Notes under the pieces: generated by a model
Database searches by the model: none
Seen by the model: the letters and a program-made list of their open reading frames with translations, nothing else
What the model was told of the DNA's origin: nothing
Shown here: in pieces, positions 9,631 to 22,075 of the stretch
Layout: each line of letters starts with the position of its first letter
Position numbering within the stretch: the stretch's first letter is position 1
Position numbers and translations under genes: made by a program
NCBI RefSeq assembly: GCF_000981585.1
Contig: NZ_LN831776.1
Location: forward strand, 7,681,903-7,745,902
DNA: 64,000 bases
Source of the DNA: Paenibacillus riograndensis SBR5
Lineage (GTDB): Bacteria; Bacillota; Bacilli; Paenibacillales; Paenibacillaceae
Reading direction: 5' to 3'

Positions 9631-9675
9631 GGCTTAAGTAATCAGCAAACTTCTATGCAGAGGATGGGCACACCC

Positions 9676-10352
9676 ATGAGAATATTAATAGTGGAAGACG
9701 AAGTGCATCTGACGGAAGCCTTGACTCAAATATTGAAGAAACAGAATTATTCGGTGGACGCGGTCCATGACGGCAGATCGGGGCTGGACTATGCACAGAG
9801 CGGGATCTATGATCTGCTGCTGCTGGATATCATGATGCCGGAGATGGATGGCTTTACTGTGCTGAAGAAGCTCCGCAGCGGGGCGTATCCACTCCCGTGA
9901 TCATGCTGACCGCCAAGGGAGAGATAACGGATATGGTGGCGGGGCTGGATTACGGGGCCGATGATTATATCGCCAAACCCTTCTCGTCAGAGGAACTCAT
10001 GGCCAGAATACGGGCGGCGCTGCGGCGCAAAGGCGAGGTCATCCCGGATGACACGCTGAAGCTGGGGGATATGGAGCTGAATACGGCGAACCTGCGGCTC
10101 TCCGTGAAGGGCAAAGAAATCAAGCTGAACCTGAAGGAAAATGAGCTGCTGGAGCTGCTGATCCTAAGGAAGCAGGCGATAACCTCGAAGGAGCAGATTA
10201 TCGAGAAGCTGTGGGGCTTCGACTCGGAGGCGGAGCATAACAATGTGGAGGTATACATCTCTTTTTTGCGGAAAAAGCTGGTGTTCCTGAATTCAGAGGT
10301 GCGCATTAACACAATTCGAAATGTCGGCTATGTATTAGAGGTGACCAGTTGA
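9676..10352 (+). pseudogene. OmpR-family response regulator, interrupted by a 1-nt frameshift
   Basis: The ATG at 9676 begins MRILIVEDEVHLTEALTQIL, a receiver domain with phospho-acceptor Asp in LLLLDIMMPEMDGF. The frame stops after LRSGAYPLP at 9900. Restoring one G in the G-run at 9880-9883 gives LRSGGVSTPVIMLTAKGE and joins it to the downstream frame, which holds the rest of the receiver (GADDYIAKPF) and a winged-helix effector domain up to 10352. This is a true decay event, a switchable G-tract or a sequencing error. The kinase gene overlaps the stop codon by 1 nt, so the pair was an operon. Confidence 0.85.
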
Positions 10353-16185: not shown

Positions 16186-16293
16186 CTCAGCAGACCGGAT
16201 ATGATTAAATGTAAGTTTACATTACATGAAAACGCTTAAAATGCCTAAATAAAGCATTAAAATTAATAATTTTAAATTTTTATGTTATAGTTG

Positions 16294-16322
16294 TTGACAT
16301 TTCCTATCGAGCTAATTATATT
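16294..16322 (+). promoter_or_regulatory. Sigma-A promoter of the nitrate operon
   Basis: A consensus TTGACA (16294-16299), a 17-nt spacer and TATATT (16317-16322). Transcription from about 16329 gives a leader of some 240 nt that contains the structures at 16382-16527 before the transporter gene. Confidence 0.7.
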
Positions 16323-16381
16323 GACATTATAAGATTTCAACGACACAACAATGTGTCCCTGAAGGTGACAACAGATTGTTC

Positions 16382-16478
16382 CCACAATGCTGTGGACGGA
16401 TAATCTGCTGTACCGGAGTGTTACTTTCAATAATTATTCAGTCAGTCACGATGGTGTGGCTGCAATGGCAATGGGGCC
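16382..16478 (+). ncRNA. Predicted dual-hexaloop ANTAR-binding antiterminator RNA
   Basis: Two hairpins carry six-base loops with A at position 1 and G at position 4, the hallmark of ANTAR-protein targets. P1: stem CCAC/GTGG (16382-16385, 16392-16395) with loop AATGCT. P2: stem GGC/GCC plus a U-G pair (16466-16469, 16476-16479) with loop AATGGG. The 3' arm of P2 overlaps the 5' arm of the following terminator, so formation of P2 would block termination. The P1-P2 linker of about 70 nt is long for the family. The ANTAR protein is not in this window. Confidence 0.7.
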
Positions 16479-16527
16479 GATGAACTTAATCCGCAGATGT
16501 GCGGGTTCTGTCAGTCGGCCTTTTTTT
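16475..16527 (+). terminator. Leader terminator controlled by the ANTAR-type antiterminator
   Basis: GGCCGA (16475-16480) pairs with TCGGCC (16515-16520), enclosing TGAAC/GTTC and CCGCA/TGCGG pairs, followed by seven T (16521-16527). It lies 44 nt before the transporter start and would stop transcription unless the overlapping P2 hairpin forms. Confidence 0.75.
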
Positions 16528-16570
16528 GCCGGTTCATTTACTTGGGGTTATTCAAAGGAGGATGTCAGCG

Positions 16571-17803
16571 ATGGAAGCAAAAGGTTTTCGTAAGGCGGGT
16601 CACGCCCCGAGTTTATTGTCAGCTTTTTTGTACTTTGATGTAAGCTTTATGATTTGGGTGCTGTGTGGAGCCCTGTCGCTCTATATCACCAAGGATTTCG
16701 GATTATCAGATACTCAAAAAGCGGCCATGGTTGCCATCCCCATCCTCGGCGGTTCGATCTTCCGCATCCCGATGGGCATCCTGGCTGACCGGATTGGCAG
16801 TAAAAAAGCAGGCCTGCTCGGAATGTTCCTCACCATTATCCCCCTCCTGTGGGGCTGGCTGGGCGGAACCAGCCTGCTGCAGATGCATATGATCGGATTC
16901 CTGCTCGGTTTTGCAGGGGCGAGCTTTGCCGTCTCCCTCTCCCTCGCCAGCCGCTGGTACCCGCCGCAATATCAGGGACTCGCAATGGGTATTGCCGGAG
17001 CCGGGAACAGCGGAACGGCGCTGGCGACCTTTTTCGGGCCGCAGATCGCCCAGGCTTATGGATGGCATAGCGTGTTCGGGATCGCGCTGATTCCCCTGGT
17101 CCTCGTTATGATTGTTTTTGCCCTATTGGCTAAAGACGCCCCGAATGCCCCGGCACCCAAGCCGCTTAAAAGCTATCTCAGCGTCTTCAAGCATGCCGAT
17201 ACCTGGTGGTTCTCGATGTTCTACGCCATTACCTTCGGCGGGTTTGTCGGGTTCGCCAACTATGCGAGCATCTTCTTCTATGATGTGTACGGCGACGGCG
17301 TACATTCCGGGGGCCTGACCAAAGTCCAGGTAGGCTACCTGGTCACCATCACAGTTATCGCAGGCAGCTTCTTCCGGCCTTTAGGCGGCTGGATTGCGGA
17401 CCGGATTGGCGGCATGCGTCTCCTGCTTGTTTTGTATGCTGTAGTTTCTGTATGTGCGTTCGCCATTGCGTCGATGCCTAGTTCCTTCCTCGTGATGCTG
17501 CTCTATACCAGCGTGATGATGGCCTGCCTCGGAATGGGCAACGGTTCGGTCTTCCAGATCATCCCGCAGCGCTTCTCCAGCGAAATCGGAGTCATTACCG
17601 GCATTGTCGGCGCAGCCGGAGGTCTTGGCGGATATCTGCTGCCGACTTACGTTCTCGGTCCGCTGAAGCAATCCACCGGCTCACAGGTTACCGGATTTCT
17701 GGTGGTCGGTTCTATCGTGCTTCTGACAACCCTGATTTTCTATGCTGTAACCCGTTCGTGGAAAAAATCCTGGGCGAAGGCGGAATCCGGGGTCAATTTC
17801 TAA
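16571..17803 (+). CDS. Nitrate/nitrite MFS transporter (NarK family)
   Basis: A 410-residue, twelve-helix major facilitator of the NarK/NNP group, expected to import nitrate for the reductase encoded next. The ATG at 16571 (MEAKGFRKAGHAPS) is chosen because AAAGGAGG lies 9 nt upstream. Family signs include RIPMGILADRIGSKKAG after helix 2, the glycine-rich helix 5 motif (GIAGAGNSGTALATFFGPQIA) and the helix 11 signature (GIVGAAGGLGGYLLP). It is separated from the reductase by 39 nt and shares its ANTAR-type leader. Confidence 0.92.
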   Translation: MEAKGFRKAGHAPSLLSAFLYFDVSFMIWVLCGALSLYITKDFGLSDTQKAAMVAIPILGGSIFRIPMGILADRIGSKKAGLLGMFLTIIPLLWGWLGGTSLLQMHMIGFLLGFAGASFAVSLSLASRWYPPQYQGLAMGIAGAGNSGTALATFFGPQIAQAYGWHSVFGIALIPLVLVMIVFALLAKDAPNAPAPKPLKSYLSVFKHADTWWFSMFYAITFGGFVGFANYASIFFYDVYGDGVHSGGLTKVQVGYLVTITVIAGSFFRPLGGWIADRIGGMRLLLVLYAVVSVCAFAIASMPSSFLVMLLYTSVMMACLGMGNGSVFQIIPQRFSSEIGVITGIVGAAGGLGGYLLPTYVLGPLKQSTGSQVTGFLVVGSIVLLTTLIFYAVTRSWKKSWAKAESGVNF

Positions 17804-17842: not shown

Positions 17843-20800
17843 ATGACAACGGGCAAAGTGAAAAGCGTCTGTCCTTATTGCGGCGTTGGCTGCGGGATCA
17901 TACTCGAAGTGTCGGGTAACCGCGTAGTCAGCATCACCGGAGATAAGGAGCATCCGGCCAATTTCGGCAGGCTGTGCACCAAAGGCAGCACGGCGGCAGC
18001 CGCACTCACGGAATCGGGCCGGATGGAATATGCCTACAAACGCCAGGATCGCGGAGCCGGGCCTGAACGAGTGAAAATAGATGAAGCTATCCGTGATACC
18101 GCGCAGCGGCTGCGGGCCATTCTGGAGGAACATGGCCCGGATGCCCTGTCCGTGTATGTGTCAGGTCAAATGTCGCTGGAGGCCCAGTATCTGATCAACA
18201 AGCTGGCCAAGGGCTTCATCCGTACCCCCAATATTGAGTCTAATTCACGCTTATGCATGGCGGGCGCTGGCAACGGATATAAGCTCTCCCTGGGAGCCGA
18301 TGGGCCTCCGGGTTCTTATCAGGATATGGATAAGACGGATTTATTCTTCGTTATCGGCGCCAATATGGCCGATTGTCATCCGATTCTGTTCCTGCGGATG
18401 ATGGACCGGGTGAAGGCCGGGGCCAAGCTGATTGTCGTGGACCCCCGGCGGACCGCAACCGCAGACAAAGCAGACCTGTTCATGCAGATCAGGCCCGGCA
18501 CGGATCTTGCCCTGCTGAATGGACTGCTGCATCTGCTTGTTAAGAACGGACACACAGACCCGGCCTTCATCGCCCGGTTCACCTCCGGCTTTGAGAGTAT
18601 GGAGGCATTTCTGGAGGACTATCCGCCGGATAAAGTGTCCGAAATTACCGGCATCCCCGAAGCCGATATCCGGCAGGCTGCCGAGTGGATTGGCGGGGCG
18701 CCGGAGTGGATGTCCTGCTGGACCATGGGTCTTAACCAGAGCATTCACGGCACCTGGCACACGAATGCCATCTGCAACCTGCATCTCGCCACAGGTGCGA
18801 TCTGCCGCCCGGGGAGCGGCCCCTTCTCGCTCACCGGCCAGCCCAATGCCATGGGCGGGCGGGAGATGGGCTACATGGGGCCGGGCCTCCCCGGGCAGCG
18901 CTCCCTGGTGTCTGAGGCTGACCGCAGCTTCATAGAGAAGCTGTGGGAAATCCCCCAAGGCACCCTTCGGTCGGATGCCAGCGGCGGCACCATTTCCATG
19001 TTTGAGAGCATGATTGCAGGCAGGATCAAAGCCTGCTGGATCATCTGCACCAATCCGGTGGCTACGGTTCCCAACCGCAAGAAGGTCATCGCTGCCCTTG
19101 AGGCGGCTGAACTGGTTATTACGCAGGACAGCTTCCTCGACACCGAGACTAACCGTTATGCGGATATCCTGCTGCCCGGGGCCCTGTGGGCCGAAGGCGA
19201 AGGCGTGATGATCAACTCCGAGCGCAATCTGACCCTGATGCAGCAAGCCGTCGAGCCGCCCGGAGAGGCCATGCCTGACTGGCAGCTGATTGCCCGGGTA
19301 GCCGCTGAAATGGGCTATGCCGGGGCATTTGCCTACCAATCTTCGGCAGAGGTCTATGCCGAAATCCAGCAGGCCTGGAATCCGAAGACCGGCTACGACC
19401 TGCGCGGAGCCACGTATGCACGGCTGCGGGAAACGCCTGTGCAGTGGCCCTCTGCGCCGGACCAGCCGAACGACCGGAACCCGATCCGGTACTTGAACCG
19501 TCAGGGCGGCACTGCCCTTAATGAGCCTGCTGATGGCAGCGTTCCAGATATCGTATTTCCGACAGACAGCGGAAAAGCTGTATTCTGGGCACGCCCGTAT
19601 ATGCCGCCTGCAGAAATGCCTGACAGCGACTATCCCTTTGTGCTGAATTCCGGCCGCTTGCAGCATCAATGGCATACGCTGACCAAGACCGGCAAGGTTC
19701 CCAAGCTTAATAAGCTGAACCCGGGTCCATTTGTGGAGATTCACCCGGAAGATGCTGAGGCGCTTGGAATTAAGGACCGCCAGCCGGTAGAGCTTCGTTC
19801 GCGGCGGGGCCAGGCGGTTCTTCCGGCCGTCCTTTCCGACCGCGTGCGCCCGGGCAACTGCTTCGCCCCCTTCCACTGGAATGATGTCTTTGGTGCCCAG
19901 TTAGCCGTCAATGACGTCACGAATGATGCCGTCGATCCCCTGTCCTTACAGCCTGAGCTGAAATTTTGTTCCGTGTCGCTGGTCAAGGCTGCGGGCCAGC
20001 TGTCCGGGGAGCCGCAAGCGCCGGATATGGGCGGGAATCAGCCCGTACCGCCAGCCGCCGCTGAGAACGCCCATCTGAAGGAGGCCGTAACCATGAAGCA
20101 GCTTGATGCGCTTGCAGGCTTGTTTGGCCTTGAAGCCCCTACGGCCATGACCCTGGATCGCCGGGAACAGGCTTATCTATCCGGTTTCATCACGAGCCTG
20201 CGCACCGAGGCTGGCCGGTCTGCCTCCGGCATTCCGGTTCTGCCGGCCACCGCACCGTTTGAGCCATCCACCCGCTACTTTGTGGACGGTCTGCTGGCGG
20301 GAATGTTCTCCCGCACTCCGCTTCCCGGAGCGGAACCGCATTCCCGGCAGGTAATGCCTTCGGGTCCAGCCTCTTCAGGGGCAGCCTCCGAAGAGGCTGA
20401 GGCAGCAGGCAAGCTTCCCGTAACCATCCTTTGGGCCTCACAGACCGGAAATGCCGAAGGTGCAGCCATTGACTGCGCGAAGAAATTACAGCAGGCCGGT
20501 TACGACATACGGCTGGTAAATATGAATCAATATTCTGTAAGCGATCTGGCGAAAACCCGGTTTGCGCTGTTCATCGCCAGCACCTTCGGAGCCGGAGATC
20601 CTCCGGACAACGGAGAAAGCTTTTACCAGGCACTTAGGGCAGAGAATGCTTCTCTGCTGAAGGATCTGCGGTACGCCGTGCTCGCTTTCGGGGATTCTAA
20701 CTATGATCTTTTTTGCGGCTTCGGAAAAAATCTGGATACCCGGCTGGAGGAGCTTGGCGCGTCTCGGCTGCTGGACTGTGCCCATTGCGATACGGACTAT

Positions 20801-22075
20801 CAGGAACAGGCGGATGCATGGACAAAGGATATCTCGGAACTGCTTCGCGGGTTCACAGGCCGCCCGGAGCCTTCTGGACTAGCCGCAGCAAGCGGCATCT
20901 CCTCCGCTTCCATTGCTGCCTCCGGCCCGGCTTCCCCGAACCCGGACCAACGCGGATATCACCGGAATCACCCGGTCCCGTCACGGCTCCTGTTCAAACA
21001 GCAGCTGAATAAGGCCGGATCTGAAAAAGAAACCCGCCACTACGCCTTCGACCTGAAGTCCGCAGGTGTGCAGTTCGAAGCAGGTGATGCGCTCGGGGTA
21101 TGGCCCGTCAATTGTCCCGGCCTGGTTGATGATCTGCTGCACACCTTGGACATTGAGCCTTCTGCTCCGGTAATGGTTGCAGGCCAGGGAGAACTGCCGG
21201 TCAACGAAGCGCTGCACCGTCATTTTGAGATTGCCCGCATTGCTCCGGAGATGCTCCGGTTCATCCGGGACCGGACACAGAACAGGCAGCTCATCAAGCT
21301 CCTTCAAAGCGAAAACCAGACGGAGCTGAAGCAGTGGCTCTGGGGGCGCCAGCTCATTGATGTTCTGCAGGAATTTCCGGTTGCCCTCAGCGCTCAGGAG
21401 TTTCTGGAACAGCTCAAGCCCTTGCAGCCCCGCCTGTATTCCATTTCGTCCAGTCCGAAAGCCCATCCGGACGAGGTTCATATTACAGTGTCTACTGTAC
21501 GCTATGGGAATAACGGTAACGTCCGCAAGGGAGTATGCTCCACGTTCCTCGCGGACCTCGCTACAGAAGATACAGAGATTCCAATTTTCATTCAAAAGAA
21601 TGCCCATTTCCGGCCACCGGTTAACCCCGATGCCCCGATGATTATGGTTGGACCGGGCACAGGCATCGCCCCGTTCCGCGGCTTCCTGCAGGAGCGCAAA
21701 GCATCCGGTGCCAAGGGCAAAAACTGGCTGATCTTCGGCGAACAGCGGGAGGACAGTGATTTCTATTTCCGCGGGGAGCTTGAGGCGTTTCGGGAGGAAG
21801 GCTTCCTGCAGCGGCTGGATACGGCCTTTTCCCGGGATCAGGCGGAGAAAATCTATGTACAGCACCGTATCCTGGAGCATGGGGCAAAAATCTGGGCCTG
21901 GCTTCAGGAAGGCGCCCATTTCTATGTATGCGGAGACGCCCGGCAAATGGCCAAAGAAGTGGATGCCGCGCTGAAGACAGTGATCCGGCAGCATGGCGGC
22001 AGGACTGCGGATGAGGCCCATGATTATGTAAAAGAAATGTCATTAACCAAGCGGTACGTGCGGGATGTCTATTGA
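17843..22075 (+). CDS. Fused assimilatory nitrate reductase / CysJ-like flavoprotein reductase
   Basis: A 1410-residue cytoplasmic fusion that would take electrons from NADPH to nitrate in one chain. Residues 1 to about 740 are a molybdopterin bis-MGD nitrate reductase: an N-terminal 4Fe-4S motif (CPYCGVGC, then LCTKG), SRLCMAGAG, and a molydopterin-binding C-terminal domain. Residues from about 750 resemble CysJ: its N-terminal linker, flavodoxin-like FMN domain (ILWASQTGNAEG near 860), FAD domain (RLYSISSSP) and NADPH domain (VGPGTGIAPFRGF), ending KRYVRDVY as in CysJ. No frameshift is needed. There is no adjacent nitrite reductase or molybdenum-cofactor gene. Confidence 0.93.
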   Translation: MTTGKVKSVCPYCGVGCGIILEVSGNRVVSITGDKEHPANFGRLCTKGSTAAAALTESGRMEYAYKRQDRGAGPERVKIDEAIRDTAQRLRAILEEHGPDALSVYVSGQMSLEAQYLINKLAKGFIRTPNIESNSRLCMAGAGNGYKLSLGADGPPGSYQDMDKTDLFFVIGANMADCHPILFLRMMDRVKAGAKLIVVDPRRTATADKADLFMQIRPGTDLALLNGLLHLLVKNGHTDPAFIARFTSGFESMEAFLEDYPPDKVSEITGIPEADIRQAAEWIGGAPEWMSCWTMGLNQSIHGTWHTNAICNLHLATGAICRPGSGPFSLTGQPNAMGGREMGYMGPGLPGQRSLVSEADRSFIEKLWEIPQGTLRSDASGGTISMFESMIAGRIKACWIICTNPVATVPNRKKVIAALEAAELVITQDSFLDTETNRYADILLPGALWAEGEGVMINSERNLTLMQQAVEPPGEAMPDWQLIARVAAEMGYAGAFAYQSSAEVYAEIQQAWNPKTGYDLRGATYARLRETPVQWPSAPDQPNDRNPIRYLNRQGGTALNEPADGSVPDIVFPTDSGKAVFWARPYMPPAEMPDSDYPFVLNSGRLQHQWHTLTKTGKVPKLNKLNPGPFVEIHPEDAEALGIKDRQPVELRSRRGQAVLPAVLSDRVRPGNCFAPFHWNDVFGAQLAVNDVTNDAVDPLSLQPELKFCSVSLVKAAGQLSGEPQAPDMGGNQPVPPAAAENAHLKEAVTMKQLDALAGLFGLEAPTAMTLDRREQAYLSGFITSLRTEAGRSASGIPVLPATAPFEPSTRYFVDGLLAGMFSRTPLPGAEPHSRQVMPSGPASSGAASEEAEAAGKLPVTILWASQTGNAEGAAIDCAKKLQQAGYDIRLVNMNQYSVSDLAKTRFALFIASTFGAGDPPDNGESFYQALRAENASLLKDLRYAVLAFGDSNYDLFCGFGKNLDTRLEELGASRLLDCAHCDTDYQEQADAWTKDISELLRGFTGRPEPSGLAAASGISSASIAASGPASPNPDQRGYHRNHPVPSRLLFKQQLNKAGSEKETRHYAFDLKSAGVQFEAGDALGVWPVNCPGLVDDLLHTLDIEPSAPVMVAGQGELPVNEALHRHFEIARIAPEMLRFIRDRTQNRQLIKLLQSENQTELKQWLWGRQLIDVLQEFPVALSAQEFLEQLKPLQPRLYSISSSPKAHPDEVHITVSTVRYGNNGNVRKGVCSTFLADLATEDTEIPIFIQKNAHFRPPVNPDAPMIMVGPGTGIAPFRGFLQERKASGAKGKNWLIFGEQREDSDFYFRGELEAFREEGFLQRLDTAFSRDQAEKIYVQHRILEHGAKIWAWLQEGAHFYVCGDARQMAKEVDAALKTVIRQHGGRTADEAHDYVKEMSLTKRYVRDVY

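Follow-up and report, generated by a model that had tools for sequence, protein, structure and literature searches.

A predicted ANTAR-type antitermination leader on a nitrate operon of Paenibacillus riograndensis SBR5, with a TrpD-like protein as candidate partner of its regulator

We analyzed a 64,000-nucleotide stretch of Paenibacillus riograndensis SBR5 (hereafter the window), in which a promoter, a series of hairpins and an intrinsic terminator precede a gene for a narK-type nitrate/nitrite transporter and a gene for a probable assimilatory nitrate reductase fusion (Table 1). A preliminary description of this locus had proposed an ANTAR antitermination leader and had placed a sigma-A promoter about 60 nt before position 16382 and a NarK and a fused nitrate reductase downstream; the promoter is present, and the domain and family model matches agree with both gene assignments. 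The narK product matched the NarK family TIGR00886 at 5.6e-86 with 288.9 bits, below the cut-off of 311.7, and the nitrate reductase fusion scored 450.9 bits against the NasC equivalog model, below the cut-off of 1100. By eye, the narK promoter is kept across an alignment of 30 narK leaders.

Table 1. Features of the narK leader and the nitrate operon in the window
Feature	Position	Strand	Description
GlnR/TnrA-type box	16210..16226	+	upstream of the narK promoter; exact match to TGTNAN7TNACA
Second GlnR/TnrA-type box	16283..16299	+	exact match TGTTATAGTTGTTGACA; overlaps the -35 hexamer
Sigma-A-type promoter	16294..16322	+	TTGACA 16294-16299, 17-nt spacer, TATATT 16317-16322
Hairpin H0	16342..16357	+	GACAC-AACAAT-GTGTC; no G4 in the window
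Hairpin H1	16372..16407	+	hexaloop CCAC-AATGCT-GTGG 16382-16395 on a longer stem, without a T tract
P1 of the predicted ANTAR motif	16443..16462	+	CAGTCAC-GATGGT-GTGGCTG, 7 bp, six-base loop
P2 of the predicted ANTAR motif	16467..16478	+	GGC-AATGGG-GCC; 4-nt linker from P1
Intrinsic terminator	16475..16527	+	stem 16475-16520, seven T 16521-16527; predicted fold -28.2 kcal/mol
Ribosome-binding site of narK	16554..16561	+	AAAGGAGG
narK-type nitrate/nitrite MFS transporter	16571..17803	+	MFS_1 3.6e-44
Probable assimilatory nitrate reductase fusion	17843..22075	+	1410 aa; molybdopterin part and CysJ-like flavodoxin/FAD/NAD (diflavin) reductase

The predicted folding energy of the segment 16360-16540 is -73.8 kcal/mol; its shuffles average -50.1 (z -5.98), and none of 200 folds as well. 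For the H1 region (16372-16414), the value is -16.0 kcal/mol. Both hairpins named in the preliminary description, with the hexaloops AATGCT (16382-16395) and AATGGG (16466-16479, TGGC-AATGGG-GCCG), are present, as is the terminator with seven T, whose 5' arm starts within P2, in the 3' arm of that hairpin. The AATGCT hairpin had been taken as P1, which gave a P1-P2 linker of about 70 nt that was called unusual. However, a conserved hairpin lying between these two had been missed, and it is this one that partners P2; with P1 at 16443-16462 and a linker of 4 nt, the unusually long linker vanishes. The 16382-16395 hairpin (H1) was set aside as the ANTAR partner of P2 after comparison with the 30 narK leaders, and it is a genuine extra hexaloop of a usually conserved type. 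A search for a strict ANTAR motif (P1 of at least 5 bp with the loop RANG.., a linker of at most 16 nt, a P2 loop AANG.. and an overlapping terminator with a T tract) found a single site across the two strands of the window, namely, the pair of P1 at 16443-16462 and P2, and none in 60 dinucleotide shuffles. Looser pairing (loops A..G.., with P1 and P2 at most 90 nt apart) gave 2 sites on the forward strand of the window and 10 on the forward strands of the 60 shuffles and is therefore weaker evidence when taken alone.

Leader DNA was matched in 33 of 100 genomes of the same genus, and 30 narK loci of these were used for comparison. The P1-P2 linker was 4 nt long in 15 of the 30 narK leaders and 5 nt in the other 15, and it was 7-8 nt long in seven nirB-type leaders examined. 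The preliminary description saw A1 and G4 in both hexaloops and looked to their retention in homologous leaders. Both bases are indeed found in the loops of P2 and H1, and the P2 loop reads AAYGRG in all 30 narK leaders, whereas the loop of the true P1 begins with G1 in the window and keeps G4. Across the narK leaders, A1 of the P1 loop is replaced by G1 in 21 (the window included) and kept in 9, and G4 is kept in 29; the remaining leader, from a close relative (L004), has the P1 loop GATAGT, with A4 instead of G4.

Compensatory changes were evaluated in alignment A1, which contains the 46 distinct sequences among 51 narK and nirB leader segments. In P1, 96.9% of the cells are paired, and five of the seven pairs show changes on both sides; the A-U and C-G pairs that close the loop do not vary. 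None of 500 shuffles was as high in covariation score or in percentage paired. Sliding the alignment by 1-3 columns gave lower covariation scores and reduced the proportion of paired P1 and P2 cells to 21-44%. Two of the five covariation measures lay within the shuffles (both-side-changed pairs, 50/500; further pair types, 106/500), and because alignment A1 mixes two groups, part of the signal is the single split between narK and nirB. The P1 result was repeated in alignment A4, which was fitted to the model and contains 84 leader matches, of which 80 come from the gap between the ANTAR gene and nirB in 80 loci (0/500 shuffles for four measures and 50/500 for both-side-changed pairs). By contrast with P1, the 3-bp stem of P2 never varied (46/46 rows of alignment A1 and 83/83 distinct rows of alignment A4), so that covariation says nothing on P2 either way. 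In the loops, A at positions 1 and 2 and G at position 4 are invariant in P2 (46/46 in alignment A1, 84/84 in alignment A4), and the same three bases occupy the P1 loop in all 21 nirB leaders of alignment A1 and all 84 rows of alignment A4.

An extra A1/G4 hairpin (C-AANGNN-G with at least 3 bp) lies upstream of P1 in 29 of the 30 narK leaders, compared with 1.6% of shuffled versions of these stretches; when the stem is set to at least 4 bp, the values are 20 of 30 and 0.6%. The narK leaders are related, and the extra hairpin thus does not represent 29 independent events. Its position is that of H0 in L020, L026 and L030-L032 and that of H1 in the other 24 leaders, and L029 has P1 and P2 only, with no extra hexaloop. 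In leaders with a good H1 and a readable H0, H0 lacks G4 in the same register (by eye). The wide occurrence of this hairpin, together with G1 in most P1 loops and the loss of G4 in L004, could mean that H1 and P2 are the working ANTAR sites and that the middle hairpin merely folds the spacer. We think this quite unlikely, since H1 is missing at its own place in four leaders (L020, L026, L029 and L030) and does not have the A1/G4 form in two others (L031 and L032), L029 has P1 and P2 alone, and the extra hairpin stands 42-97 nt from P1 (loop to loop) in the narK leaders against a constant 4-5 nt between P1 and P2. In the seven nirB-type leaders examined, a search upstream gave no such additional hexaloop, and, according to excerpts of PMC8934654, the addition of 20 nt to the linker abolishes antitermination in the EutV system.

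With P1 and P2 preferred as the working pair, the extra hairpin can be compared with tandem arrangements in relatives. It is present in each of the seven narK-type leaders obtained from other genera within the family (L205-L211). In L208-L211, from three genomes, there are two complete ANTAR units, both made up of P1, P2 and a terminator that has a T run, and the hairpin at the H0 position is the P1 of the complete first unit. Two complete units also occur in L259, from another family of the order, where the loop of the second P2 begins with G, and L263 has two matches side by side, seen as model matches only. L205 and L207 look intermediate, with an intact H0, a decayed first P2 and the first terminator stem kept. 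Because some relatives have two complete tandem units, the extra hairpin looks like a remodeled first unit. By this comparison, H0 of the window is a probable relic of the P1 of the first unit and H1 is probably the former first terminator, and we infer that the two together are the remodeled remains of a first ANTAR unit. Selection may keep one extra hexaloop, though L029 manages without it.

A whole-genome domain search of the 7.92-Mb, single-contig host genome found one ANTAR gene (PF03861, E 3.4e-18), which encodes a protein of 198 aa and is divergent from nirB (nitrite reductase large subunit); a sumT-like gene (by eye) follows nirB. A second ANTAR leader, that of the nirB operon, adjoins this sole ANTAR gene and consists of GAATAC-AACGGT-GTATTC, a short linker, GGC-AATGGC-GCC and a terminator with five T. 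When the host genome was searched with model R1 and 150 of 2350 first-look candidates were scored, the strong sites were the narK leader (7.4e-17) and the nirB leader (2.4e-14), and the next best site had an E value of 3.96.

Among the 100 genomes of the same genus, an ANTAR match was seen in 78; with 40 first-look candidates scored per genome, leader matches with E no higher than 0.01 were seen in 70. All 65 genomes that have a non-EutV ANTAR gene, a class set by exclusion with a minority of its ANTAR loci opened, have the leader, versus 1 of 26 genomes without a full ANTAR domain (22 without an ANTAR match and 4 with a weak partial match); this one genome, G022, is a 900-contig draft. Nine genomes whose ANTAR genes were all judged to be EutV-type or unclear were left out, and four of these had weak leader matches. 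Related genomes are not independent, and the Fisher value for this co-occurrence (1.6e-21) therefore overstates the case. Across the family, with 13 first-look candidates scored, leader matches with E no higher than 0.001 were seen in 175 of 295 genomes, which belong to 11 of 19 genera; some of these matches are weak and possibly of the EutV kind. In other lineages of the genus (L176-L183 and L185), leader matches lie on one or both sides of divergent narK and oxidoreductase operons, named from the sequence start alone. Weak partial ANTAR matches were also seen in frames of approximately 303-326 aa that represent a different protein type (G008, G035, G068, G078 and others).

No Rfam family matched in the whole window at the gathering threshold, and nothing matched 16200-16700 even at E up to 1. 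This absence, and the fact that ANTAR binding is read from the sequence, would fit an ordinary attenuator or another riboswitch, with a terminator that answers something else and hexaloops that are incidental. The covarying stem and conserved loops argue against an ordinary attenuator, as do the presence of just two strong sites in the genome, one of them beside the sole ANTAR gene, and the co-occurrence of leader and ANTAR gene across genomes, and we regard such an explanation as very improbable. The narK leader is very likely an ANTAR leader, and the proposal of an ANTAR-type antitermination leader on the nitrate operon is supported by sequence, predicted fold, covariation, co-occurrence and synteny.

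The predicted fold of the regulator (mean pLDDT 86) comprises a receiver-like domain, a long helix (coiled coil) and an ANTAR bundle, and its best solved matches are EutV, AmiR and Rv1626. The preliminary description had suggested a genome search for an ANTAR protein with a nitrate sensor; there is one ANTAR protein, as given above, but a NIT domain was not found in it, ANTAR being its only Pfam domain at E up to 0.001. Alignment A5 sets seven regulators of the window type against two EutV-like proteins from relatives. Where the EutV-like proteins have the phospho-acceptor Asp (VILD/VIMD), all seven regulators have I or V, and the N-terminal acidic pair is gone from them save one E in L054. 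The end of predicted strand 3 (residue 56 of the host protein) is N, H, C or A in these regulators. The residues at EutV Lys143, Tyr164 and Met172 are invariant in alignment A5, where the Enterococcus faecalis numbering is assumed to equal that of the EutV-like row. These results suggest that the regulator is a pseudo-receiver ANTAR protein and not a phospho-regulated protein of the EutV type, and, as the usual phospho-acceptor is absent, its switch is most likely a protein partner.

A TrpD-like gene lies directly downstream of the host ANTAR gene, and its product is 94% and 95% identical to its counterparts in Paenibacillus graminis and P. jilunlii, respectively. The trio of ANTAR gene, TrpD-like gene and divergent nirB was present in 21 of the 31 opened ANTAR loci (alignments A2 and A3 represent 16 of these 21); in the other 10, of another type, neither neighbor was found within the 3 kb examined. 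TrpD-like loci were also fetched by the sequence of the TrpD-like protein itself, and the best 80 of 208 confirmed loci were used: the ANTAR gene is just upstream in 80/80, nirB is divergent in 79/80, the leader is in the gap in 80/80, and 15-75 nt separate the ANTAR and TrpD-like matches. These 80 loci come from Paenibacillus, Cohnella, Fontibacillus, Saccharibacillus and two records named Bacillus sp. Order-wide, 139 of 198 genomes had a TrpD-like match at E up to 1e-60, and among 19 such loci that were opened, the ANTAR gene stood beside the TrpD-like gene in 11/11 at 420 bits or more and in 0/8 at 351 bits or less. A more distant TrpD-like subfamily is represented by L266-L273, in which no ANTAR gene was found within the 9-10 kb examined.

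The TrpD-like protein has glycosyl transferase 3 domains and a TrpD fold. The sequences GTGGD and KHGN, which are present in the TrpD chain used for comparison and which we take to be the PRPP motifs of the TrpD anthranilate phosphoribosyltransferase, are rewritten yet conserved as GPYDG and LHGS in the TrpD-like proteins, and P82, D84, G85 and H110 are among the invariant columns. The protein scored 135 bits against TIGR01245 (cut-off, 199.05). A separate trpD-like match in the host genome adjoins a frame resembling anthranilate synthase (by eye), and because of this other match and the differing motifs, we do not regard the TrpD-like protein as the TrpD enzyme of tryptophan synthesis. We also considered a connection with the cyanobacterial protein named NirB; the cut-off of the corresponding model, PRK07394, was reached in 1 of 14 control genomes. 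By its gene neighborhood, the TrpD-like protein is tied to the ANTAR regulator, and the consistent co-location and the rewritten motifs lead us to take it as a likely sensor or antagonist of the regulator, by analogy with AmiC and NasS for theirs. Alternatively, the ANTAR protein may control the leader while the TrpD-like protein is an enzyme or binds nucleic acid and has no switching role, the pseudo-receiver or another protein doing the sensing. This would fit genome G013 (L256), which has the ANTAR gene and two leaders, one of them on nirB, with no TrpD-like match at E up to 1e-60, and the TrpD2 protein YbiB is called DNA-binding in an excerpt of PMC10123104. The close pairing of the two genes in the best 80 of 208 loci, its order-wide dependence on bit score, the separate trpD-like match and the conservation of the rewritten motifs weigh against this alternative, which we consider possible yet somewhat doubtful. 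With the TrpD-like protein as the preferred candidate partner, G013 provides a natural test of its contribution. Among the matches listed in a literature search, no work linked ANTAR and anthranilate phosphoribosyltransferase by title.

Upstream of the narK leader, the pattern TGTNAN7TNACA, which we take to be a GlnR/TnrA-type box, occurs twice. The window contains three exact boxes, where shuffles average 0.59; the third, at 2522-2538, is not near the nitrate operon. Of the 30 narK loci, 28 have such a box ahead of the leader, as do 75 of 80 ANTAR/nirB loci; among random 200-bp pieces from the ANTAR/nirB loci, 2.1% have one. As stated in an excerpt of PMC9948412, GlnR binds the nasA and nasD promoters in P. 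polymyxa. Control is likely to be divided, the promoter responding to nitrogen status and the terminator to a nitrogen-oxide signal. An A+T-rich stretch at 16250-16290 (AAATTTTTATGTTATA and near variants) is kept in narK leaders (by eye); it sits between the upstream box and the -35 hexamer and is possibly an UP element or another regulator site.

In the mechanism that we propose, RNA polymerase would start at the 16294-16322 promoter, where the GlnR/TnrA-type boxes would give the nitrogen-status input. Without active regulator, the 16475-16527 terminator would form, and narK and the nitrate reductase gene would be off. The ANTAR domains of the active protein would take the hexaloop of P1 and then that of P2; P2, when held, would block the 5' arm of the terminator, and transcription would thus read through into narK. 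The same ANTAR protein would control nirB via the second leader, beside its own gene. H1 would act as an accessory hairpin for capture, a remnant of an ancestor in which two complete ANTAR units stood in tandem, and a protein partner would switch the regulator, the best candidate being the co-encoded TrpD-fold protein in a role like that of AmiC or NasS. Taken as a whole, with the narK leader as an ANTAR antitermination leader, the sole ANTAR protein as its regulator, the TrpD-like protein as partner candidate and H1 as accessory, this explanation is in our judgment highly probable. A more specific model, in which a TrpD-fold sensor of nitrate/nitrite or a nitrogen metabolite holds and releases a pseudo-receiver ANTAR antiterminator of a small nitrate regulon and the narK leader derives from tandem antiterminators, has in our view an even chance of being correct.

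The proposed leader resembles the eut leaders of EutV/EutW in E. faecalis (excerpts of PMC3369931 and PMC8934654) in its dual hexaloops P1 and P2 and the overlap of P2 with the terminator; the linker is short in both, and the 4-5 nt of the narK leaders touch or fall slightly under the range of 5-12 nt given for the eut leaders. Tyr164 and Met172 of the EutV ANTAR domain are kept in the regulator, but here the receiver-like part lacks the phospho-acceptor, the targets are nitrate/nitrite assimilation genes, and the narK leaders add an extra hexaloop or a second unit. Mutations of A1 and G4 are harmful in EutV targets, as an excerpt of PMC3369931 states. In excerpts of PMC8934654, A1 makes no specific contact with EutV, G4 stacks on Tyr164, Met172 positions and holds P2, Lys143 is highlighted, and the minimal EutV site is one hexaloop, two hexaloops being bound successively; these findings agree with a purine as the first loop base, with a linker of 4 nt between P1 and P2, and with a role in capture that the extra hexaloop may have. 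In Klebsiella NasR-nasF (4akk), as proposed here, an ANTAR protein brings about read-through of the leader of a nitrate operon (excerpt of PMC3369931). Of the NasR and EutV logic invoked in the preliminary description, the dual hexaloop and the terminator are found here, whereas the NIT sensor of NasR and the phospho-acceptor of EutV are not.

NasS-NasT of Paracoccus and others (excerpt of PMC3795266) has in common with this system the control of nitrate assimilation by a receiver-like and ANTAR protein with a candidate sensor gene co-encoded. Unlike NasT, the regulator here has no NasS-like neighbor; the neighbor has a TrpD fold, also in the best 80 of 208 loci, which were chosen by that protein. 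Four NMT1_2 proteins of the host genome lie away from the ANTAR gene and have lipoprotein-like starts (by eye). The fold match to AmiR of Pseudomonas aeruginosa AmiC-AmiR (1qo0) would lead one to expect a pseudo-receiver under partner-protein control, as proposed here, but the candidate partner is TrpD-like and not of the AmiC type, and the targets differ. With TrpD and TrpD2/YbiB, the neighbor protein shares glycosyl transferase 3 domains and the TrpD fold, and it differs from them in GPYDG and LHGS and in its genetic tie to the ANTAR regulator. This kind of leader is already known, since, in an excerpt of PMC3369931, ANTAR RNA hits are reported before nitrate/nitrite transporter and nitrite reductase genes of diverse bacteria. 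We found nothing in literature searches on ANTAR antitermination and nitrate in Paenibacillus, or on Paenibacillus nitrate assimilation and NasT; the matches listed for ANTAR and Paenibacillus include none on this leader by title, and the words nitrite, nitrate and ANTAR do not occur in the main text of PMC5445326.

If the proposal is correct, the TrpD-fold protein would be a further type of partner beside AmiC/NasS, NIT domains and histidine kinases, and its role as a sensor is now a directly testable question. The Paenibacillaceae, which live in soil and with plants and have nitrogen fixers among them, would gain a concrete nitrate RNA switch for which the regulator, both targets and a likely partner are named. 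In addition, one set of relatives suggests that a tandem antiterminator was worn down to a single unit and an extra hexaloop, which bears on the natural use of single hexaloops by ANTAR proteins. Elsewhere in the window, at 9655-10352, a response-regulator gene shows up as overlapping open frames of 81 aa and 151 aa in different reading frames, so that it is either broken or read with a frameshift.
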